Shown here in pieces: positions 32,038 to 37,293 of a stretch of 64,000 nucleotides of DNA; the stretch's first letter is position 1; every line of letters starts with the position of its first letter. Source of the DNA: an uncultured Caryophanales bacterium (GTDB lineage Bacteria; Bacillota_I; Bacilli_A; RFN20; CAG-826); NCBI GenBank assembly GCA_946414655.1, contig CAMKPL010000001.1, forward strand, positions 173,081 through 237,080, in the 5' to 3' direction. A model generated the notes under the pieces. The model saw nothing but the letters and a program-made list of their open reading frames with translations. It was not told the origin of the DNA and searched no databases. A program made the position numbers and the translations under genes.

Positions 32038-33252
32038 TTAAAATACAGGGTACTTGATTACAAGTTTTGATGAGTGATTATCTGTATATGTTTCCCTATA
32101 ACGAGGAATATATACGAGCTTACCATTCTTATTATAAAATCCCGGCCACCAGCCTCGTAAAAATGATGGCATTTTCCAGTCGATAAACAGACGTCTAACG
32201 CTGCAGTTGTAGTTGCCGACGGTATACTTTTCTTGTCGCCCGACTGGTTTAATTGTCAAAGGAAAATCTGCAATCGACATATTTCTATCTTTGGTTTCAA
32301 CTTCGAATTCAAAATCAATAAATTTAGATGAAAATTTTCCAGGATTTTTAATTACATATTCATACTTTTCAAACTGATCAAAATCAACCAATAAAACCTT
32401 TTCATACGCTTTTACTAAATGGATACTTCCTGAAATTTTTTGAGCAATATTTGCGTGATTGCTTTCGAAAGATTTTTTGTAGGATTTAATCGAATTTACT
32501 GACAACTTTTTAAAAATATTTCTTTGTTGTAAATTATTTGAAATTTGTAAGATTAAAATTTCGTTTTTTTCTTTTAAAAACTCCTGTAAATCCCAAATAT
32601 TTTGCTGCAAATTTAAGCTATTTTTATTTGGTTGATTTTTATTAAGTTCAGCAATTTGCTTCCTTGCTTTTGCTCTTTCTTTGCGATCCATTTTCTCAAC
32701 AATTTCGTGCCTATATTTATTGCGAGTATACAGGTCGGTTAGGTTTGTCCAATCAATTGAATAAGGAACTTGATTTTTGATGTCATATTCTTCTAGTTCT
32801 TTCTTTGTAAAATTTAACAAAGGTCGAACAATTTTTACGCCAAATAATGTTGTTGTTTCTTCAATGCCAAAACTAGATACAAATGATTTCTTAGACTTTT
32901 GCATCAGATATGTTTCGATAAGGTCGTCCTCCTGGTGAGCAACAGCGACCGCATCGCATTCGTTTTGTTCTAGAACATCTTTGAAAAATTGATAACGAAC
33001 CTTACGTGCCCATTCTTGGAAATTCCCAACATGTTTGATATTTGATGTATCTAAAACAAAACATGGCACGTCATTTTTAAGACAATACTCTTTTAAAGAC
33101 TGCTCTTCAAAATCAGATTCCTTTCGTTTGTGGTAATTCACATGTGCAACAACCACACAATATCCATCTTTTAACATCATATCCAAAAGAGCCATGGAAT
33201 CTGGTCCAAAGGAACACGCAACAACATATTTCTTCTTTTTATCTAAATTCAT
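32038..33252 (-). CDS. tilS: tRNA(Ile)-lysidine synthase
   Basis: VVACSFGPDSMALLDMM (SGPDS-type PP-loop), VAVAHQEDDLIETYLMQ, RPLLNFTKKELEEY. Confidence 0.93.
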   Translation of the reverse strand: MNLDKKKKYVVACSFGPDSMALLDMMLKDGYCVVVAHVNYHKRKESDFEEQSLKEYCLKNDVPCFVLDTSNIKHVGNFQEWARKVRYQFFKDVLEQNECDAVAVAHQEDDLIETYLMQKSKKSFVSSFGIEETTTLFGVKIVRPLLNFTKKELEEYDIKNQVPYSIDWTNLTDLYTRNKYRHEIVEKMDRKERAKARKQIAELNKNQPNKNSLNLQQNIWDLQEFLKEKNEILILQISNNLQQRNIFKKLSVNSIKSYKKSFESNHANIAQKISGSIHLVKAYEKVLLVDFDQFEKYEYVIKNPGKFSSKFIDFEFEVETKDRNMSIADFPLTIKPVGRQEKYTVGNYNCSVRRLFIDWKMPSFLRGWWPGFYNKNGKLVYIPRYRETYTDNHSSKLVIKYPVF

Positions 33253-36200: not shown

Positions 36201-36731
36201 ATCGAAAATATCTCCTCGGTGTGCAAATTGGAGAGATTGATCAATCTTATTAACTTGCGAATATCCGGATGAAATAACAAGTTCTTTTAAGTTAGAAATA
36301 TCAACGTGATCTCCAACTTTTAATATCTTTGAATGTTGTAGAAATTCTACTTTGTTTGGAATCGGAGAAATGACCGCTGTTGAATGTGTTACCAAAATAA
36401 AATTTTTTAATTCTTGCACACGGTTTAAAACATATAGACGTTGAGCTAAAAACTCTTTTGAAGATGTTACTAAATCACTTCTCAGAAGATCGTCGCCAGG
36501 ATATAACAAAACATTTTCTTCACCAACAATCGCAGAAATGAAGTCTGCAACCTTTTGAGCGTTATATAAATTTGGACAAATTATTGAGTATTTACCTGGG
36601 CTTTTCGAAAAAACAGACGAAAAAAGCAGGGAAATTCCTGTAGTATCCCCAACGACAAAATTCCCTTTTTTCTCAAGAAGGGAGGTAGCGGCTTTGGAGT
36701 TTAAAACATAATCAACAAGTTTGTTAGTCAG
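33249..36731 (-). CDS. mfd: Transcription-repair coupling factor Mfd; conserved N-terminus extends ~75 codons past the track start, probable CTG start at 36731 or 36734
   Basis: RID domain, SF2 motifs (LLCGDVGFGKTEVAFRA, DEEQRFGV), TRCF domain. Upstream in-frame LLTNKLVDYVLNSK...YSIICPNLYNAQKVADFISAIVGEENVLLYPGDDLLRSD matches the Mfd N-terminus. Confidence 0.93.
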   Translation of the reverse strand: MTNKLVDYVLNSKAATSLLEKKGNFVVGDTTGISLLFSSVFSKSPGKYSIICPNLYNAQKVADFISAIVGEENVLLYPGDDLLRSDLVTSSKEFLAQRLYVLNRVQELKNFILVTHSTAVISPIPNKVEFLQHSKILKVGDHVDISNLKELVISSGYSQVNKIDQSLQFAHRGDIFDVFSINYNHPIRIEFFDDEIESIHFFDIATQSSKESVDEIEILPATDCLFSDLELNEFKSAMKEQLVKDQKELGQDIGEKLIDCFNRDLERIENKIFNPRTYKYFKSIKKRFSSILDYFESDIVFINNKKQFDIALEFSLKEERTYLREMFEHGNLPSHLEMYDDIDHVLKYQKNVLSSSLFKEHADDIEFDTKPLIFSKANIPSLQLIIDSYLPLAKKTIFCVSNTQQYNIVKDFLDERKIEYEKLKTPAIPKKNVGIVLFSLDEGFELGDDKIFFVSSRELFGFQSHSSRYSSKFKEGIILKNFDDLKPGDYVVHEFYGIGQFLSIETIEVDGIHRDFLNIQYAGTDKLYVPLTQFRLVRKYAGREGAQPRLSHLNSKDWEKTKKKIKERVNELADRLYQLYSERATAKGFKFQEDDQIQSDFENEFPYELTHDQETAIKEIKEDMQSDRVMDRLLCGDVGFGKTEVAFRAIFKAISSGKQAAILCPTTLLARQHYELALNRFANYGVKIAIISRLVSEKQQKIYMKQIASGEIHLVIGTHRLLNKEFVFKDLGLLVVDEEQRFGVEQKERIKEIKSNIDVLSLSATPIPRTLQLSLIGVRPVSQITTPPVNRNAIQTYVAPFNKGVVKELIEREISRKGQVFYIHNAVYSINQTANAIQRSIPYARVGVVHGQMDKEDIEDVMIRFYNGDIDVLVATSIIENGIDVPNANLIIVEDADHFGLSQLYQIKGRVGRGDTLAYAYLFYNEYKQINKNAEKRLKAIQDFAELGSGYKIAQRDLMIRGAGDILGPEQAGFIDSVGLDLYLKLLKEVIEEKKTGVVPEPPKPVTLFKIDAYIPEQYASNEDRIQLYQEIENAKNEEEIKEIKRHVRDVYGRLPKEVENLIDKRKIDIYLGEEEFDKTNEYNDCIELVLSSKFSELSGIGNALFESLQPYLDKIVVTYLQKVLRIRLKKEGNWIRDLESIVVVIRTLYQKFSKKVKEQ

Positions 36732-37293
36732 CAGATTTACCTCCGTTATATTTACACATGGCAGCGTTAAAATCTTTTAGCAAAAACTCGCGTATTGCCA
36801 ATGCTGCTTTATTTATTCCTTGGTCGATAAGCGGCTGTTCTTCTTTCGACGGTCTACCCAGAACATAATTAATTGGATCGAAGGTCGGCTCACCAATACC
36901 AATTCGAATGCGTTTAATGTTTTGTGAACCAAGATGGTTAATAATGTTTTGCATACCATTATGTCCACCGCTTGATCCAAAAAGTCTTAATCTGATCTCG
37001 CCAGGTTTGACTGCCATATCGTCATAGACAATCACAATGTCTTCCAAACTAACCTTGAAGTAAGAGACAATTGCTTGAACTGCCTCACCTGACAAATTCA
37101 TATAAGTTAACGGTTCAAATAAGATAATATCTTCGTCATCTAACTTAAATTTGGAATAGCGCCCTTTGAAATCCTCGCGATTAAAATCAACTTGTGCCAT
37201 ATCAGCATAAGCTTCAATTGCTGCGAAACCACAATTATGGCGGGTGTTTTCATACTCTTTTCCCGGATTTCCAAGACCAACAATTAATTTCAT
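36724..37293 (-). CDS. pth: Peptidyl-tRNA hydrolase
   Basis: MKLIVGLGNPGKEYENTRHNCGF...; SGGHNGMQNIINHLGSQNIKRIRIGIG. Confidence 0.98.
   Translation of the reverse strand: MKLIVGLGNPGKEYENTRHNCGFAAIEAYADMAQVDFNREDFKGRYSKFKLDDEDIILFEPLTYMNLSGEAVQAIVSYFKVSLEDIVIVYDDMAVKPGEIRLRLFGSSGGHNGMQNIINHLGSQNIKRIRIGIGEPTFDPINYVLGRPSKEEQPLIDQGINKAALAIREFLLKDFNAAMCKYNGGKSAD

Follow-up and report, generated by a model that had tools for sequence, protein, structure and literature searches.

Start codon of mfd

Where does translation of mfd begin in this bacterium? The window, a stretch of 64,000 nucleotides, stems from a draft genome (1.21 Mb, GC ~37%, 41 contigs) and carries on its minus strand a frame (stop at 33249) whose product matches the TIGR00580 mfd equivalog (E 4.5e-298) and the Pfam set UvrB_inter, CarD_TRCF_RID, DEAD, Helicase_C and TRCF. 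The frame is open upstream as far as a TAA just before 36776, and from that stop down to the TTG at 36509 it holds no ATG, GTG or TTG. Its codons past the TAA read AAG ATT TTA ACG CTG CCA TGT GTA AAT ATA ACG GAG GTA AAT CTG CTG ACT AAC: two tandem CTG codons follow a strong Shine–Dalgarno (SD) sequence, whose GGAGG core is predicted to form a duplex with the 16S 3′ end at −10.4 to −10.9 kcal/mol (Table 1).

Table 1. Features of the pth–mfd junction and the 5′ part of mfd, in window positions.
Feature	Position	Strand	Basis
mfd CDS read from CTG 36731, 1160 codons	33249–36731	−	TIGR00580, NF007966 and Pfam matches
pth (peptidyl-tRNA hydrolase), 8-nt overlap with mfd	36724–37293	−	PF01195 (1.6e-64); ATG start
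SD core GGAGG within the pth 3′ end	36740–36744	−	Sequence; conserved in sister species
First CTG, alternative mfd start, spacer 5 nt	36732–36734	−	Invariant in five species; spacer of 5 rare
Second CTG, most likely mfd start	36729–36731	−	Alignment with TTG/CTG of congeners; 8 nt after GGAGG; 8-nt pth overlap
TACCTCC, perfect complement of the mfd SD GGAGGTA (36744–36738); possible alternative pairing	36681–36687	−	Sequence; one fold
RNA hairpin TCCCTT ... AAGGGA, mfd codons 17–24	36662–36683	−	Synonymous bias, covariation, randomisation, folding
Tail AATTTTGTC/G, putative RNA polymerase pause	36653–36662	−	Family GGG/GTC counts; pause consensus (PMC12288461)
TTG, first canonical codon of the mfd frame; 74-residue truncation of Mfd	36507–36509	−	Sequence, pN/pS

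An initial annotation of this DNA had proposed initiation at CUG, reasoning that a start at the TTG would delete ~75 conserved residues, that the extension upstream lacks a canonical codon and resembles the Mfd N-terminus, and that a strong SD precedes the tandem CTGs. Each of these points holds, and the start can be narrowed to the second CTG. With CTG 36731 as start, the match to the NF007966 model sets in at residue 26 of the protein and model position 18; with the TTG as start, it begins only at model position 79. The 73 disputed codons evolve as coding sequence, with a pN/pS across five species of 0.22 in frame as opposed to 0.99 and 5.9 in the other two frames. Conservation of the CTG in sister genomes and the chance of an assembly error, both raised by the same annotation, were settled together: GGAGG and CTG-CTG are identical in four further species of the genus, whose Mfd proteins are 98, 91, 91 and 82% identical. 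Given the in-frame pN/pS and this conservation, the disputed stretch is neither chance nor the product of a base error.

Which of the two CTGs is used? The SD core lies 5 nt from the first and 8 nt from the second, and GGAGG-to-ATG spacers in this genome have their mode at 7–9 nt, a spacer of 5 occurring in 4/83 genes. CTG 36731 is moreover homologous to the TTG or CTG start of other congeners, 13 codons ahead of an AATSLL stretch, and in two loci (L008 and L009) the CTG aligned with it overlaps the pth stop as CTGA. The second CTG is therefore favoured, by modal spacing and by homology. Both marks of a near-cognate start were thus found, namely the absence of any ATG, GTG or TTG compatible with the N-terminus and an SD at functional spacing that is kept in relatives. 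Translation of mfd from a CUG, best from CTG 36731, is supported as the only reading that fits the SD, the N-terminus and the five species.

Three other readings fare poorly. Translation from TTG 36509, the first canonical codon of the frame, would yield a shorter Mfd and leave the upstream frame untranslated; it is highly improbable, for the upstream codons evolve as protein and match the Mfd N-terminus, and the SD at the CTG is kept in five species. The overlapping frames in the window might instead suggest a frameshifted Pth–Mfd fusion that dispenses with an mfd start, but among relatives each of the three possible phases between mfd and pth occurs, and the mfd start codon of 22 loci comes immediately after an in-frame stop, so that such a fusion is hardly credible. 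That an ATG was lost to a sequencing or assembly error, conceivable in a draft of 41 contigs, is refuted by five species, assembled independently of one another, that all carry the same SD and CTG-CTG. An upstream in-frame ATG present in L004 and L005 was also considered as a general start and rejected: it is absent from the other three sister species and has no SD. Among sister copies of mfd, some are interrupted (L006, L012, L019/L024), by an in-frame TGA (G017), a TAG (G013) or a split frame (G002), reflecting either assembly error or decay.

Translational coupling of pth and mfd is plausible. The pth stop, TAA 36726–36724, leaves an overlap that falls within the range of −8 to +6 nt for termination–reinitiation pairs, and 8 nt is a recognised overlap class for this process (PMC10666635). 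The arrangement is not uniform: in most relatives the two genes are separated by −17 to −4 or +8 to +17 nt, and the junctions include CTGA, TTGA or an SD placed on the stop. Downstream, mfd shares 4 nt (ATGA, 33249–33252) with the tilS-like gene that follows, and the pth–mfd–tilS operon hence looks translationally coupled throughout.

Weak mfd starts across the family

To our knowledge, natural ACG and CTG starts are very rare in bacteria. We gathered mfd 5′ ends from genomes of the same family; for 150 loci, the codon at the homologous start position was called automatically. The calls, least certain for the AT-rich genus g19, gave TTG in 50 loci, ACG in 47, ATG in 20, CTG in 13, GTG in 6, ATC and ATT in 5 each and ATA in 4; a canonical codon was absent from the call window in 69 of them. 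The pth genes of these loci, taken as a control, have an ATG start in 142/156 cases. The ACG occupies the exact place that TTG or ATG takes in relatives, after AAGGAGG and before AAC CTA TTT GA; ten loci have it directly after an in-frame stop. Over a 160-tip mfd tree, the class of start changed at least 35 times.

The weaker codons go together with stronger SDs: complementarity over a fixed region is −10.0 kcal/mol in non-ATG members versus −4.7 in ATG members (p=4.9e-6). In the sister family f3, all ten mfd loci start with ATG, and nine of them have a weak SD. Streptococci, enterococci and clostridia apparently use mostly ATG for mfd, and there the gene seems to lack the hairpin element described below. 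The weak start of mfd is thus family-wide, conserved as a class though the identity of the codon shifts.

Is it also specific to this gene? A census of the source genome took in 449 kb with 423 predicted genes and was insensitive to extensions below ~25 codons. Only three genes showed strong coding signal well before their first canonical codon: mfd, infC and a transposase orfB. Within these ~450 kb, infC is the sole other clear case like mfd; the gene (L177, G000:C2 57402–58002, minus strand) has an ATC start after AAAGGAG, the usual kind of non-canonical start for IF3. The transposase-like frame (G000:C1 280288–281212, plus strand) runs through 89 coding codons before it reaches a canonical start; an IS3-type element probably expresses it by frameshifting, as its second frame. 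In a genome with an ACG start, where 345 genes were surveyed over 412 kb, ACG after a strong SD was found at mfd only, and the strong upstream coding signals look like split genes. Several frames with coding signal and no start in G162:C4 (L292–L311), among them a 64-aa frame, an aldehyde-dehydrogenase-like fragment and permease-like pieces, likewise look like split or frameshifted genes. Genome-wide relaxation of initiation is accordingly rejected: in the censuses of two genomes, the weak start is specific to the gene.

A hairpin and putative pause in the first codons

The start codon is not the only unusual feature of this 5′ end. Some 45–80 nt into mfd lies a conserved element in which a hairpin of a C-rich and a G-rich arm is followed by TTTTGTC/G, the slash separating positions −1 and +1; in the window, hairpin and tail span 36683–36654, as TCCCTT...AAGGGA and then ATTTTGTC. 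Synonymous divergence of mfd drops to roughly half over the first codons, and synonymous choice is near background there except in the blocks ACC-NCC-NCC-CTC and AAG-GGG-N-TTT-GTC (~0.9–2.2 bits per codon at key positions). Arms from the same genome pair better than arms combined across genomes (80 representatives, p=2.6e-9), with p=0.10 for an upstream control arm. When codons were randomised synonymously by drawing from the same mfd gene, the native stem exceeded expectation (Stouffer Z 14.6 for the family, 8.3 for 72 representatives; p=0.02 for the window), the excess being non-significant within the ATG-start class (p=0.41). Loci with the C-rich arm carry GGG in 86/111 cases and GTC in 92/101, against backgrounds of 12% and 25%; in loci without the arm, GTC is found in only 6/23 (p=5e-10).

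What might this element do? The elemental pause signal consists of G-10, Y-1 and G+1, with a hairpin ~10 nt upstream of the RNA 3′ end (PMC12288461). The mfd element fits a hairpin-stabilised pause of this type by its sequence pattern, with the hairpin ~10–13 nt upstream and, in the window, G-10 at 36663, C-1 at 36654 and G+1 at 36653, and TTTTGTC/G is thus a putative RNA polymerase pause site. The window hairpin is modest and its tail, with four consecutive T, lies under the threshold of the terminator scan, which did not call the site. A free scan for terminator-like structures exceeded synonymous shuffles in 31/150 loci only; some relatives, such as L268, have a CCTCC/GGAGG stem plus T7. 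Over the 449 kb of the source genome that were covered, the motif occurs once. Searching Rfam 15 with the element returned only chance-level matches, none above the gathering score, and RNAalifold gave no consensus structure for the family hairpin, since the stems differ in register and the loops in length. At about codons 14–28 of mfd in L193, L204, L192 and L261, an outer helix GCGAT/GTCGT surrounds the hairpin and possibly marks a larger structured element; in such members it offers a competing reason for the conservation of GTC.

Weak start and hairpin are associated. Of the loci that possess the C-rich arm, 6/116 start with ATG, versus 14/34 of those that lack it (p=1.2e-6; representatives p=2.5e-4; phylogeny corrected for only in part), and the distance from start to G-10 is 62, 65 or 68 nt in 113/116 loci with the arm. 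The linkage is not absolute and the two features are separable, since sister family f3 pairs the hairpin with ATG. In that family (L312–L321), the mfd ATG usually lies 1–3 nt past the pth stop behind a weak SD, and a longer hairpin is often kept, for example CCCACCTTGA/TCAAGATGGG.

Could the weak starts be no more than tolerated drift, in which a cell needing few copies of Mfd gets by with a strong SD and ribosomes supplied by pth, the hairpin being unrelated? The many changes on the mfd tree, the interchange of CTG, TTG and ACG among relatives and the strong SD of weak-start members would all agree with this. However, ~90% of genes use ATG and the operon partner pth keeps it, as against 20/150 at mfd, and drift leaves unexplained both the association of non-ATG starts with the hairpin and the conserved ACG of one genus. 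We regard it as rather unlikely.

Alternatively, the C-rich segment could pair with the SD and mask the translation start, the hairpin with the G-rich segment representing the open state. In the clade of the window, GGAGGTA and TACCTCC are perfectly complementary over 7 nt and invariant in five species, and the pairing is present in one predicted fold of the mfd 5′ end; as both partners are invariant, covariation offers no test here. Across the family, an SD pairs no better with the C-rich arm of its own genome than with that of another (p=0.28), whereas for the two arms of the hairpin the native pairing is better, and L008, L012 and like members have GGTGG, which does not match. SD masking is, to our mind, improbable.

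Possible control of the Mfd level

Why should a repair gene combine a poor start with a hairpin? By comparative inference on draft genomes, the account we consider probable is that mfd is translated from CUG 36731, after a strong SD in the end of pth, as one instance of a family design that holds Mfd low by a weak start together with a hairpin acting as pause or attenuator. A poor, usually non-AUG start (ACG, UUG, CUG, AUA and others) would keep Mfd synthesis low, and joined to it is the hairpin with its U-rich tail in the first ~25 codons. With few ribosomes starting, polymerase might transcribe the first 70 nt of mfd with no ribosome trailing close behind; thus uncoupled, it could allow the hairpin to form and would pause or terminate at TTTTGTC/G, leaving mfd attenuated unless translation begins promptly.

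Mfd, a DNA-repair helicase, is the enzyme that removes stalled RNA polymerases, and it may be speculated that it acts on the polymerase paused here, limiting its own gene. In this self-targeting attenuator, the weak start would repel ribosomes, and a polymerase parked by the hairpin near codon 26 would be dislodged by Mfd, closing a direct negative feedback loop. Such autoregulation is attractive but speculative, and we hold the loop as a whole to be doubtful. Precedents exist for Mfd acting within genes and at terminators: in B. subtilis, termination within genes at CcpA and CodY sites depends on it (PMC7885715), and its loss increases readthrough at terminators in Synechococcus (PMC13289151).

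Near-cognate starts and pause hairpins are both known kinds of element; no case of the two stably combined on mfd throughout a bacterial family, with ACG common, was found in the open-licence literature searched. The closest relatives are instructive. Conserved non-AUG starts with extended SDs occur in S. aureus at cvfC1 (AUU) and ccpN (AUA), where they lower output (PMC13009471). Shared with mfd are the weak codon, the strong SD and the conservation within a lineage; in contrast, mfd is another gene, its codon often changes, ACG is common and a hairpin lies within the gene. In Streptomyces, a GTC start of sigR is repressed by IF3 (PMC5472188). Like mfd, sigR has a near-cognate start holding down a dosage-sensitive protein, but it has no linked downstream hairpin, and its dependence on IF3 has been demonstrated. 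By analogy with sigR and infC (PMC5472188), the CUG and ACG starts of mfd would be expected to be sensitive to IF3. As to hairpin-stabilised pauses and attenuators (PMC12288461), the likeness consists in a hairpin ~10 nt upstream of G-10/Y-1 G+1 and a T-rich tail; the mfd hairpin differs in lying in the first codons and not in a leader, and its pause site is proposed from sequence alone.

The gene for IF3 itself offers a further parallel. Non-canonical starts of infC are AUU in E. coli, AUA in S. aureus and ATC in Streptomyces, and the infC of the present genome, with its ATC, resembles mfd in having a conserved non-AUG start after a strong SD. The feedback logic of infC cannot apply to mfd, because IF3 proofreads its own start codon and we know of no role of Mfd in initiation.

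What follows for this family of uncultured gut bacteria? Automatic annotation is expected to truncate Mfd in its genomes. That a non-AUG start is kept while the codon changes its identity points to selection on initiation strength itself, and the link between hairpin and weak start predicts a controlled dosage of Mfd, possibly controlled by Mfd. Such control would matter for a protein that promotes not only repair but also mutagenesis. If the self-targeting attenuator were true, Mfd would be metered to match the burden of stalled polymerases in the cell.
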